From Lachnospiraceae bacterium (GTDB lineage: Bacteria; Bacillota; Clostridia; Lachnospirales; Lachnospiraceae), in the NCBI GenBank assembly GCA_022483465.1, contig JAKVNF010000002.1, forward strand, positions 310,001 through 374,000: a stretch of 64,000 bases of DNA, given 5' to 3'. The translations under genes and the position numbers were made by a program. The notes beneath the pieces are model-generated. The model was not told the DNA's origin and did not search any database. It was given only the letters and a program-made list of their open reading frames with translations. Of the stretch, positions 50,093-54,072 are shown one piece after another (positions within the stretch are counted from its first letter, which is position 1; every line of letters starts with the position of its first letter).

Positions 50093-50877
50093 TGTCACTC
50101 ACACCGGAACAGATCCTGCGCTTTCAAAGAGCTCGGGATGCCGTCGTCAGGCCGGGGGAGCGGGAGAGAAACGGCATCGGCACCCAGATGGAGAAGACCG
50201 TCCACGCGGTATGCAAGCGCTACGTGGATCCCGATCCCGACCACCAGGAAATCCCGGTGGCGGGGTACATCGCAGATCTCTTTGACGGAACCAGGATCAC
50301 GGAGGTCCAGACGGGGAGCTTTGCCCCGCTAAGGAGAAAGCTCCTGGCCTTCCTGCCCAGGTATCCGGTGACGATACTGCACCCGATCCCCCATGAAAAA
50401 TGGCTTACCTGGATTGATCCGGAAAGCGGGGCCCTGTCGAAGCGGACAAAATCGCCTGTGACGGGGTCGTTTTATCATGCCTTCCGGGAGCTCTATGAGA
50501 TTCGGCCCTTCCTGCAGGATCCCAACCTGACCCTGCAGCTGCTCCTCATCGACATGGAGGAGTACCGGGTACAGGACGGCTGGGGGCGCGGCGGAAAGCG
50601 GGGCTCCCACCGGTACGATCGGATCCCGGAAAAGCTTGTGGACGAACTTGTGCTCAAGGGCCCGGACGACTATAATGCCTTTCTTCCGGAAGGGCTGCCG
50701 GACGCCTTTACAAGCCGCGAGTTTGTCCAGGCGGCGGCACGCAAAAAAGTCCGCACCGTCTCCCCCTCCACGATGCTCCAGGTCCTTGCGGAGCAGGGGG
50801 TCGTCACCCGCTGCGGAAAGCGCGGAAACAGCTATCTCTGGACCGTCCCGAAGGACCGCCCAGAAAAAGGAGAGTAA
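50092..50877 (+). CDS. hypothetical protein: nuclease-like N-terminus and winged-helix C-terminus
   Basis: A 261-residue protein, not recognised as a named family. In the N-terminal half, a helix GIGTQMEKTVHAVCKRY is followed by GYIADLFDGTRITEVQTG. The D...ExQ spacing is like a PD-(D/E)XK nuclease core with Gln in place of Lys. The C-terminal 60 residues (FTSREFVQAAARKK, then LQVLAEQGVVTRCGKRGNSYLW) have the pattern of a winged helix. Both assignments are inference. It is coupled to the DUF5662 gene by a TGATG overlap. The IscB element begins right after its stop. Confidence 0.6.
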   Translation: MSLTPEQILRFQRARDAVVRPGERERNGIGTQMEKTVHAVCKRYVDPDPDHQEIPVAGYIADLFDGTRITEVQTGSFAPLRRKLLAFLPRYPVTILHPIPHEKWLTWIDPESGALSKRTKSPVTGSFYHAFRELYEIRPFLQDPNLTLQLLLIDMEEYRVQDGWGRGGKRGSHRYDRIPEKLVDELVLKGPDDYNAFLPEGLPDAFTSREFVQAAARKKVRTVSPSTMLQVLAEQGVVTRCGKRGNSYLWTVPKDRPEKGE

Positions 50878-50879
50878 GA

Positions 50880-51320
50880 TTCTCACTAACCCCACGGCAA
50901 GCCGTGGGGGTTGTGTGACAACACAGCCCCATCGGCCTAACGTGAGGACTGCAGCACCATCGCAGTCCTGAGTGAGTAGCCTCATGCCTGTCCAAAAACC
51001 TTCGGATTGCGGATGGGCTACGTTATCAGCAAATTCGGCAGATCAGTTCCGGCTTGTCTGCTCGTGAACACAGGCACCAGTGGATGCTCTCACAAGTCCA
51101 CTGCTCTGCGGTGTGTCACTAAACATTTCTGAGGGTAGGAGGAGTGTGATACACAACAAACTGCTGACAACATTGGCGATGTGGACCCGCCGAACGGGGC
51201 TTCTTCTTCCGGGAAGGAGCCTCCTGTAGGCAGAACCCCGTGTATGCCTTCCCTGAGGAGACACAGCACGGGAAGCCGTAAGGCACCGTAACGATTGTAT
51301 GATTTTCAGAAAGGAGGCAT
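50880..51320 (+). ncRNA. predicted omega RNA region of the IscB system
   Basis: The 448 bases between the element's left end and iscB carry no protein gene but are rich in stems: CCCCACGGC/GCCGTGGGG, AGGACTGC/GCAGTCCT (50945-50970 area) and GGGG...CCCC pairing around 51195-51240. In characterised IscB systems the omega RNA is encoded upstream of iscB on the same strand, and its guide comes from the DNA flanking the left end. Here the guide would derive from about the last 16-20 bases before 50880. The limits given are approximate and the RNA is predicted, not shown. Confidence 0.6.
50890..50909 (+). repeat. left-end hairpin of the IscB element
   Basis: Perfect nine-base-pair stem CCCCACGGC/GCCGTGGGG with an AA loop, paired in form with the right-end hairpin. 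Confidence 0.85.
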
Positions 51321-51325
51321 CAGTT

Positions 51326-52696
51326 ATGCTGACCTATGTACTGGCTGCAGACGGCTCACCGCTGATGCCGACCTACAACATCAAAAAGGTGAGACAGATG
51401 CTCAAAGGCGGCAGGGCAATCATTGCAGGCCACAAGCCGGGATTTACAATCCGGCTGACCTACGCTCTGCCGGATCAGAAAACGCCGCATACGCAGAAGG
51501 TCGAACTCTGCGAGGATACCGGCTATCAGCATATCGGGGTCTCCGTAAAGAGCACAAAGCATGAGTTTGTCCATCTGCAGGTCGATACACTTGCAGATGA
51601 GAAGCAGCATCACGATGCACAGAGACGGTACCGCCGCACAAGACGAAACCGTCTCCGGTATCGTGAAGCGAGGTTCGACAACCGCACACACTCCAAGAAG
51701 CCCGGATGGCTTGCACCCTCACTTCAGCATAAAGCGGATATCCATGTGCGTCTTGTATCCACGTTCCAAAAGGTACTGCCGATTCGTGATGTATACCTTG
51801 AAGTGGGGACATTCGATACACAGGTTCTCGAGGCAAAGGAAAAGGGCCTGCCAATTCCGGAAGGATCAGACTATCAGCATGGAGTCCGTTACAGCATTGC
51901 TACGCTTCGTGAAGCGGTATTTTATCGTGACGGCTACAAATGCCAATGCTGCGGTAAGGGGATCGAAGATGGACGGATTCTGCGTGTGCACCATGTTGGT
52001 TACTGGAAAACACCCTCCGATCATACAGACCGGTTGGGCAACCTGATTACGGTCTGCACGAAATGCCATACGGCGGCAAACCACAAAAAAAGTGGCAAAC
52101 TATATGGCTGGAAGCCGAAGATGAAACCTCTGACTGGCGCAGCGTTTATGAACACCGTGCGGTGGAAAATTGTGCAGGCTGTCAAAGACTTGGATTCCAG
52201 TCTGACTGTGCATACCACGTATGGAGCATATACAAAGCTGTCACGTCGGGATCACTCCCTTGCCAAGACGCATGCAAATGATGCCTATTGTATGGGAGCG
52301 TTTCAGCCGGGGCACAGAGCGGCGGAACAGCTTCTGAAAAAGAAACGCCGTAATCATCGTGTGTTGTCCAAATTCTACGACGCGAAGTATATTGATATCG
52401 GGGATGGTGTCAAAAAGTCCGGATCAGATCTGTCCTGTGGCAGAACAAACCGTTCAGAGCCTCGAAATGGGAAAAAGAACTTTCGGATCTTTCGTGGCAA
52501 AAAGGTAAGCAAAGGACGTATCGCCGTTCGAAAGCAGCGATATCCGATTCAGCCGGGAACACAGGTAATGTATAAAAAGCATACCTATGTTGCAGTTGGA
52601 ACACACAACAACGGCACAGCAGTTGTACTGAATTCAGGCAAAAGCGTATCTGTCAGTAAGCTACGGATATTGCATCATGCCGGAGCTTTTATTTGA
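51326..52696 (+). CDS. iscB: RNA-guided endonuclease IscB
   Basis: A 456-residue ancestor-type relative of Cas9. The N-terminal PLMP domain is visible (DGSPLMPTYNIKKVRQML). The RuvC-I Asp64 is in CEDTGYQHIGVS. An Arg-rich bridge helix spans residues 99-120 (RRYRRTRRNRLRYREARF). The RuvC-II Glu159 is in VYLEVG. The HNH domain (about 196-260) has CQCCGK, the His pair in RVHHVGYW and CTKCHTAANH. RuvC-III is KTHANDAYCMG (His316, Asp319). A C-terminal beta-rich domain follows. All nuclease residues appear intact. ATG 51326 follows AAGGAGG. Confidence 0.93.
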   Translation: MLTYVLAADGSPLMPTYNIKKVRQMLKGGRAIIAGHKPGFTIRLTYALPDQKTPHTQKVELCEDTGYQHIGVSVKSTKHEFVHLQVDTLADEKQHHDAQRRYRRTRRNRLRYREARFDNRTHSKKPGWLAPSLQHKADIHVRLVSTFQKVLPIRDVYLEVGTFDTQVLEAKEKGLPIPEGSDYQHGVRYSIATLREAVFYRDGYKCQCCGKGIEDGRILRVHHVGYWKTPSDHTDRLGNLITVCTKCHTAANHKKSGKLYGWKPKMKPLTGAAFMNTVRWKIVQAVKDLDSSLTVHTTYGAYTKLSRRDHSLAKTHANDAYCMGAFQPGHRAAEQLLKKKRRNHRVLSKFYDAKYIDIGDGVKKSGSDLSCGRTNRSEPRNGKKNFRIFRGKKVSKGRIAVRKQRYPIQPGTQVMYKKHTYVAVGTHNNGTAVVLNSGKSVSVSKLRILHHAGAFI

Positions 52697-52716
52697 GAAA
52701 GGGGGACGGCGCTCCT

Positions 52717-52736
52717 CCCCGCTGCAAGCGGCGGGG
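52717..52736 (+). repeat. right-end hairpin of the IscB element
   Basis: CCCCGCTGC/GCGGCGGGG, a nine-base-pair stem (one G-T) with an AA loop, 20 bases after the iscB stop and 19 bases before the pepT ATG. Confidence 0.85.
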
Positions 52737-52755
52737 TTTCCGCGCCTGTATTATT

Positions 52756-54072
52756 ATGAAACTTCATTTTGAACCCAAGGCGATGACCGAGCGCTTTGTC
52801 CGCTATGCCGCCATCTATACCCAGTCCAGGGAGGGTGTCCCGGACACCCCCAGCACCCCCTGCCAGCGGGATCTCGCAAAGGTCCTCACGAAAGAACTGC
52901 AGGAGATGGGCGCAAAGGACGTCGCCTTCGATGAGGACAAGTGCTACGTCTACGCGGAAATCCCCGGGAATCTCCCGAAGCAGAAGTGCGACCCCGCGGC
53001 CGTAAAGTCCCTCCCCGATGCCGCAAAGAAGCGCCGGGAGAACACCGCGCCGATTCTGGGTCTTATGGCCCACATGGACACAAGCTGCGCGGTGGATGCC
53101 AGGGAGATTCATCCCCGCGTCATCGAAAACTACGACGGCTCTGTCATCCGTCTCAATGAGAAGTACGTACTGGACCCCGCCGAGTACCCGGATCTTGCCG
53201 CGCGCAAGGGGCAGACCCTGATTGTCACCGACGGGACCTCCGTCCTTGGCGGCGATGACAAGGCGGGCGTCACCGCCATCATGGAGGCCGCTGCCTTCTT
53301 CCTCTCCCACAAGGAGATCGCCCATCCCACGATCCGCATCGCCTTCACCCCGGACGAGGAGGTGGGGAACGGCACCCTGAACCTTGACTATGACCGCTTT
53401 GCCTGCGACTACGCCTACACGGTGGACGGAGGCGGCGAGGGAGAGCTCGAGTACGAGAACTTCAACGCGGCTTCCTGCGATGTCCACGTGACCGGCCTCT
53501 CGACCCACCCGGGTTCTGCCTGCGGGAAGATGAAAAACGCGCTGCTTGTCGCAAACGAGTTCATCAGCCTCCTGCCCGCCCTGGAGACCCCCTATTACAC
53601 GAAAGACCACGAGGGCTTCTTCCATGTGGAGGAGCTCCACGGCACCTGCGACAGCGCTGACCTTGCCATCATCATCCGGGACCATGACGCCAAGCGCTTT
53701 GCGGAGCGCAAGGAGACTGCCGAGAAGATCGGGAAGGTGTTAAATGACCGGTACGGCGCCGGCACTGTGGATGTCAAAGTCCGCGACTCCTACTACAACA
53801 TGCTCTCCAAGATTGAACCCCACATGCACCTTGTGGAGAATGCGAAGAAGGCGATGGAGGAGATCGGCGTTGCGCCGAAGATCCAGCCGATCCGGGGCGG
53901 CACCGACGGGTGCGTCATCAGCTTCCGGGGCATTCCCTGCCCGAACCTCTTTACCGGTGCCCACAACTACCACAGCCGCTACGAGTACGTGAGCGGGCAG
54001 GAGCTTGCGCTCTCTGCCGAGACGCTGATCAGGATAATGAACAAATATGCAGAATACGACATTGACCGCTGA
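52756..54072 (+). CDS. pepT: peptidase T (tripeptide aminopeptidase, M20 family)
   Basis: Zinc-dependent cytosolic aminopeptidase releasing N-terminal residues from tripeptides. Metal and catalytic motifs are GLMAHMDTSCAV, LGGDDKAGVTAIMEAA, FTPDEEVGNG and RGGTDGCVIS. A His near HNYHSRYEYV completes the site. Length (438 residues) is slightly above usual. The ATG at 52756 has no ribosome binding site because the iscB element ends just before it. An ATG at 52783 is weak too. A TTG at 52693, overlapping the iscB stop, has GGAG seven bases upstream and would add 21 residues encoded by the element end. The start is unresolved. Confidence 0.92.
   Translation: MKLHFEPKAMTERFVRYAAIYTQSREGVPDTPSTPCQRDLAKVLTKELQEMGAKDVAFDEDKCYVYAEIPGNLPKQKCDPAAVKSLPDAAKKRRENTAPILGLMAHMDTSCAVDAREIHPRVIENYDGSVIRLNEKYVLDPAEYPDLAARKGQTLIVTDGTSVLGGDDKAGVTAIMEAAAFFLSHKEIAHPTIRIAFTPDEEVGNGTLNLDYDRFACDYAYTVDGGGEGELEYENFNAASCDVHVTGLSTHPGSACGKMKNALLVANEFISLLPALETPYYTKDHEGFFHVEELHGTCDSADLAIIIRDHDAKRFAERKETAEKIGKVLNDRYGAGTVDVKVRDSYYNMLSKIEPHMHLVENAKKAMEEIGVAPKIQPIRGGTDGCVISFRGIPCPNLFTGAHNYHSRYEYVSGQELALSAETLIRIMNKYAEYDIDR

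Follow-up and report, generated by a model that had tools for sequence, protein, structure and literature searches.

The window analysed here is a stretch of 64,000 nucleotides (nt) from the genome of a Lachnospiraceae bacterium (assembly GCA_022483465.1, contig JAKVNF010000002.1, positions 310,001 to 374,000). At positions 50882 to 52755, on the plus strand, it contains a HEARO/IscB element, in which a HEARO (omega) RNA precedes the gene for an IscB nuclease and which lies between the Shine-Dalgarno (SD) sequence and the start codon of pepT. The element is a multi-copy mobile element. At its right end an SD-like stretch is followed by a two-tier hairpin and then by the start codon of the downstream gene. 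On the sequence comparisons presented here, we consider it likely that this end functions as a portable split ribosome-binding site, through which translation of the downstream gene is maintained, and that the element was moved in trans and is held in place by IscB-omega cutting.

Extent and copies of the element

The 18 matches to the element in the 4.3-Mb genome comprise seven full copies, three copies split by inserts, and fragments of four more. The copies are 94 to 98% identical to the element of the window and differ pairwise by 1.5 to 5.3%; the nearest named relative is in an uncultured rumen Lachnospiraceae genome (93% identity). Eleven left ends in the genome start CTCACTAACCCC, and all 13 right ends close with ATGA, which in the window lies directly 3' of the element (52756 to 52759). 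Since the left and right ends of the same-genome copies agree, the element is assigned to 50882 to 52755; an initial annotation, made from the letters of the window, had located it and given its ends as 50879 and 52745. Ten copies retain both ends, which are the same at unrelated sites, and such dispersal in multiple copies marks a mobile element, not the stand-alone programmable nuclease suggested at first. The comparison with an empty site in related genomes, proposed earlier for fixing the ends, yielded one congener (G431), the only one of 61 same-genus genomes to align over the joint (70%; query positions 12 to 281 of 300). Its uninterrupted site reads ATGT at the start, not ATGA, and the ends were fixed by the own-genome copies.

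When the flanks of the ten two-ended copies were joined, natural sequence was restored in most of them. Five joined sites become a gene start with an SD sequence, a spacer, and ATGA, the genes being pepT (in the window) and those for a DUF308 protein, a melibiase-type glycosidase, and two products with no match in Pfam. Three others (L010, L012, and L017) become one long reading frame over the joint, L011 is less clear, and the flanks of L013 appear mismatched: the left one resembles a gene start, and the right one looks like the interior of an acetyltransferase-like gene, possibly through recombination between copies.

Insertion between SD sequences and start codons

The pepT gene (52756 to 54072, plus strand; peptidase T, 438 amino acids, identified by NCBIfam peptidase-T) has its SD sequence and start codon separated. 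The original SD sequence (AAGGAG, 50867 to 50872) is stranded to the left of the element, and the trailing ATGA, which is the target and the presumed target-adjacent motif (TAM), is also the pepT start codon, as seen from the 13 right ends, the joined site, and the congener without the element. In this genome, five of the ten two-ended copies coincide exactly with a start codon, as do 6 of the 13 right ends when a remnant before ilvB is included. Of 534 ATGA tetramers in the window, a crude gene caller assigned 8 to gene starts. With L013 dropped for its mismatched flanks, the binomial probability of finding 6 of 12 at start codons is 1e-8 to 1e-5 at assumed rates of 1.5 to 5%.

The same habit was seen in a test independent of annotation, in which an SD sequence was sought 4 to 18 nt left of the left junction and in six control windows farther left. 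A stranded SD sequence was present at 34 of 102 insertions versus 22 of 612 control windows. This excess recurred in the own genome (6/11; controls, 2/66), in relatives from GTDB genomes (13/52; controls, 7/312), and in an independent set of viral contigs, whose 80 loci gave 39 distinct left flanks (15/39; controls, 13/234). Among the relatives, the left ends of L133 and L140 were set by hand, L140 being one of the positives, and 1 of 53 was omitted as too short. Both ends were defined in 31 related loci (window excluded). A stranded SD sequence together with an open reading frame of 50 codons or more from the ATG was found in 10/31 of them, compared with 62/1938 among the remaining ATGA sites of those flanks (p 3e-8); the corresponding values were 11/31 versus 97/1938 for the SD sequence alone and 21/31 versus 641/1938 for the open reading frame alone.

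Proteins opened at the right-end ATG were compared with families for ten relatives and then five, two common to both sets, which we chose among the loci with long open reading frames. Matches starting within 8 residues of the N terminus included those to PRK13670 nucleotidyltransferase, HisA, RlmN, CarB-type carbamoyl-phosphate synthase, and a dicarboxylate symporter and, below the cut-off, those to YhbY (just under it), M42 peptidase, and flavodoxin. For two proteins, the library searched gave no family hit, and L206 matched in its C-terminal part only. Of eight plasmid loci, chosen by us among 30 listed, five (Cetobacterium, Anoxybacillus [thioredoxin], Finegoldia, Shewanella, and Pseudoalteromonas) have the RefSeq start of the following gene at the right-end ATG; the two L. 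salivarius loci and Natranaerobius show no such agreement. The relatives with an element between SD sequence and ATG come from several phyla.

Architecture of the right end

The right end, which the initial annotation had overlooked, is the unusual part of the element. In the window, an SD-like stretch (AGAAAGGGGGA; 52696 to 52706, plus strand) pairs with the 16S rRNA tail at -15.5 kcal/mol and is followed by a two-tier hairpin (52708 to 52746, plus strand), composed of an outer stem (52708 to 52712 with 52742 to 52746) and an inner hairpin (52717 to 52736), as defined by covariation in 36 right ends and by the fold of the window. The SD-like stretch, the two-tier hairpin, about 10 nt, and ATG follow one another in this order in 47 distinct right ends that have an ATG 5 to 14 nt past the terminal hairpin (26 from relatives, 20 from viral loci, and that of the window). 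Ends without such an ATG (10 of 38 relatives and 5 of 27 viral loci) and four duplicates, which reduced 51 ends to 47, were left out. The parts of a split ribosome-binding site, namely, SD sequence, hairpin, and start codon, are thus all present and in that order, and we infer a translational function for them.

Complementarity to the 16S tail peaks immediately 5' of the hairpin, where 81% of the right ends fall below -8 kcal/mol in the bins that begin at -25 and -20, compared with 2 to 19% in the bins from -100 to -35. A site below -8 kcal/mol lies within 40 nt of the hairpin in 44/47 right ends, and this interval holds the best site of the full 100 nt in 39/47. At least 7 contiguous bases of AGAAAGGAGGTGA occur in 36/47, and 9 to 11 occur in 24/47. 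With respect to iscB, the stretch is in phase 0, 1, or 2 or behind the stop codon in 18, 17, 5, and 7 right ends, respectively. This distribution over all phases and behind the stop argues against amino acid conservation, and conserved C-terminal T-E-R-R codons are disfavoured as the cause of GAAAGGAGG.

The hairpin was examined in an alignment (A4) of 36 of the 47 right ends, the other 11 having been left out by eye. In it, 88.4% of the cells are paired versus 29 to 49% with slid partners, two-sided changes number 117 versus 21 to 38, and the covariation score is 0.631 versus at most 0.165; as the structure was derived from the same alignment, it is favoured over the slid versions, chiefly on cells paired. 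Two-sided changes occur at all six pairs of the outer stem. In partition-function folding of 48 right ends, the outer stem formed with a probability above 0.5 in 35/48, and the SD sequence was unpaired with a probability above 0.5 in 36/48. Among the ten right ends of relatives set aside for lack of a boundary ATG, three (L135, L159, and L201) have an ATG slightly past the limit or are cut off, and of the other seven, two are below -8 kcal/mol.

A second HEARO right-end type was also observed (L134, L145, L146, L147, L150, L155, and L169), in which TTCATC- replaces TTCCTCC- (L135 has TTCCTCC). It has no ATG at the boundary and mostly no SD sequence, which suggests another target class. Four copies in Erysipelotrichaceae RD49 (L158, L172, L179, and L180) share right ends running into ATATGGA instead of ATGA, so the target may differ there.

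A right-end remnant upstream of ilvB

A 65-bp remnant of the right end lies directly before ilvB in the own genome (C2:611728-611781) and is the sole part of the element found there. It retains GAAAGGAGGAG, the hairpin, and ATGA. Close to its start ilvB has no SD sequence of its own (-3.2 kcal/mol), and that of the remnant is the only evident one, whereas an ordinary SD sequence is present in congeners. All 19 congener ilvB loci fetched have -5.7 to -13.4 kcal/mol at the SD place; six of them (L352, L354, and L357 to L360) appear to be slips to a different start, and the other 13 are trusted. The simplest reading would be that ilvB now uses a transposon-derived SD sequence over a hairpin.

IscB protein, omega RNA, and guide

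The iscB gene (51326 to 52696, plus strand) encodes 456 amino acids and is preceded by the SD sequence aaaggagg at 51310 to 51317. The protein scored 268.5 bits against NCBIfam guided_IscB (cut-off, 175), matched both Pfam RRXRR and HNH, and had HfmIscB as its best solved relative, the alignment covering residues 8 to 354 of the 465-amino-acid frame given. It combines the PLMP domain (PLMPT in the alignment), RuvC with a bridge helix, HNH, and the catalytic residues. D64, H222, H223, H248, and D319 are invariant, and E159, N239, and H316 are conserved at 90% or more, among 24 aligned IscB proteins, that of the window included; all eight are intact in all ten two-ended own-genome copies, in agreement with the complete RuvC/HNH set described initially. 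Loss of the RuvC-I aspartate was considered and rejected, as the alignment places it at CEDTG (D64), intact. The mean dN over mean dS (nonsynonymous over synonymous divergence) of the copies is 0.15, showing that the protein has been under purifying selection.

A few copies are disrupted. That of L013 (L013:4041-5918; C3:400739-402614) has one stop codon. Apparently the same insertion sequence (ends GGCGTTAGTAAGAAAACGGG) lies inside the IscB copies of L016 (L016:5577-6790; C3) and L017 (L017:4369-5583; C1), at nearly the same iscB base, about 1 bp apart, which suggests a hotspot or two independent hits. A further own-genome copy (L018:5076-5334; C3) has an insert of ~260 bp at a short repeat.

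The covariance search proposed in the initial annotation identified a HEARO RNA scaffold directly upstream of iscB, at 50882 to 51191 on the plus strand (Rfam RF02033; 89.3 bits, gathering score 83, E 9e-17, full model covered), and HEARO was upstream of IscB in 17/17 related loci scanned. The rest of the leader (51192 to 51325, plus strand) has diverged less among the ten copies (1.0%) than any other part of the element, which suggests that it may also belong to the omega RNA. The leader had no match in the E. coli collection.

By analogy with published IscB work, the left flank (50862 to 50881, plus strand) is the presumed source of the guide. The initial annotation had derived the guide from the 3' end of the left gene. 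This holds in part: the gene stops at 50877, and a guide of 16 to 20 nt would span its 3' end plus the stranded pepT SD sequence. The description of that neighbour as nuclease-like found no family hit in its support. No other ATGA-bearing site within 3 mismatches of the window guide was present in the own genome. IsrB enzymes read NTGA, TTGA, or NTG as TAM (PMC9581776), and the ATGA of the 13 right ends fits these motifs.

Transposases of the genome

As noted initially, there is no tnpA inside the element. Searches by tblastn with four TnpA proteins of the own genome detected no Y1 transposase near 160 related loci in the fetched flanks (up to 3 to 4 kb per side, often less). The own genome has 38 Y1 transposase matches, some of them fragments, which include at least three multi-copy families, one with TnpB. 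The ends of the IscB element had no real match among the ends at 20 of the 38, and 14 further places were covered by a hairpin scan only. Slight resemblances, uncounted, were seen in an IS200-like family starting AATGAAACAG and in a lone TnpA with a CAACCCCC hairpin. None of the compared Y1 loci was shown to share the IscB ends. The element was probably moved in trans by a Y1 transposase.

Proposed mechanism and alternative explanations

In the mechanism that we propose, a Y1 transposase acting in trans would move the element, and the IscB-omega complex, guided by the left flank and with ATGA for its TAM, as in known IscB/TnpB biology, would cut resealed or element-free alleles, so that the element is kept in place. 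Adenine is enriched after the start codon in bacterial genes (PMC5850271), which makes ATGA a frequent gene start; a target of this sequence would place the element between an SD sequence and its ATG. The host gene would then be translated from the SD sequence of the element, the hairpin bridging the gap and bringing it to a working distance of the ATG, as in T4 genes 38 and 25. Somewhat less firmly, we favour the broader view that a widespread IscB/HEARO class has adapted to this position: its right end would take over translation of the host gene, insertions before carB, hisA, rlmN, and pepT would be tolerated, the host would become dependent, and remnants could become the sole ribosome-binding site, as at ilvB.

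Several points weigh against this. About half of the own copies and many relatives lie away from start codons, and the right-end pattern, drawn up after part of the data had been seen, was found in just 38 of 74 relatives and 27 of 80 viral loci. The SD-ATG spacing after folding was no better than in shuffles (median 10 versus mean 11.6), the AUG of the window is predicted to be paired (0.04 unpaired), and pepT has an alternative in-frame start, TTG 52693, overlapping the iscB stop. A hairpin adjoining the end also suits single-stranded DNA transposition. At ilvB, a part of the SD sequence is paired in the lowest-energy fold of the remnant, and another ilvB-like gene (C2:322184) is present in the genome.

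Some of these points would fit an ordinary IscB element with ATGA as its target, from which selection purges insertions within genes so that those at start codons remain, the GAAAGGAGG-hairpin block being a DNA signal for the transposase without a role in translation. IS200/IS605 elements usually have hairpin ends, insertions inside genes also carry this right end, and the spacing did not beat shuffles. However, the motif is complementary to the 16S tail, right ends without a boundary ATG mostly lack it (the 2/7 given above, the three unclear ones aside), and it is retained in the ilvB remnant, where no other SD sequence is evident, and we regard this explanation as unlikely. Still less probable, in our view, is translational coupling, in which ribosomes finishing iscB melt the hairpin and re-initiate downstream, in the window possibly at TTG 52693, from which the frame is open. 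The SD sequence does lie in or just behind the last iscB codons, and the iscB stop overlaps the next start in two plasmid loci, but sequestration of the SD sequence by TCCTCCC exceeded 0.5 in only 1 of the 48 folded right ends, and the ilvB remnant has the SD sequence without iscB. The stand-alone programmable nuclease or defence gene suggested initially, for which the intact active sites and the lack of tnpA in the element could speak, is very improbable; it is largely refuted by the ten two-ended copies with the same ends at unrelated sites, and the genome has its Y1 transposase matches.

Relation to known systems and implications

IS200/IS605 elements with TnpB have hairpin ends, a guide derived from the flank, and a TAM that equals the target site. 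The element described here is like them in these respects, whereas its arrangement is the mirror image (guide left, TAM right), it contains no TnpA, and its ends differ from those of the three own-genome TnpA families whose ends were compared. Neither insertion at start codons nor a ribosome-binding site in IscB/HEARO elements was described in the titles and abstract beginnings searched, which formed most of the literature covered. Weinberg is said to have noted, in 2009, ATGA or GTGA behind HEARO elements, so part of the present findings may be in print.

The element shares with HEARO/IscB (OMEGA) elements the IscB domain set, the upstream HEARO RNA, an ATGA-type target or TAM, and usually no TnpA nearby (PMC9755519), whereas the start-codon sites and the SD-hairpin right end are not described in the available part of that account. 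In T4 genes 38 and 25, structure reduces the distance between SD sequence and AUG from 22 nt to 5 nt and from 27 nt to 11 nt (PMC3014915). The hairpin between SD sequence and AUG would shorten the distance in the same way. The T4 sites each serve one phage gene; the one described here, as the end of a mobile element, would serve any gene behind it. The element is of a known kind, and the adaptation of its right end is apparently undescribed.

If the proposed reading is true, it explains the persistence of IscB elements without TnpA before important genes and shows that the end of a transposon is able to evolve into a module for translation initiation. This would be a natural hairpin-bridged ribosome-binding site present in several phyla. 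Such copies would have SD sequences in their guides, a point of relevance to off-target cutting at the starts of other genes, and the sites of HEARO elements and their tolerance by the host would become testable questions.
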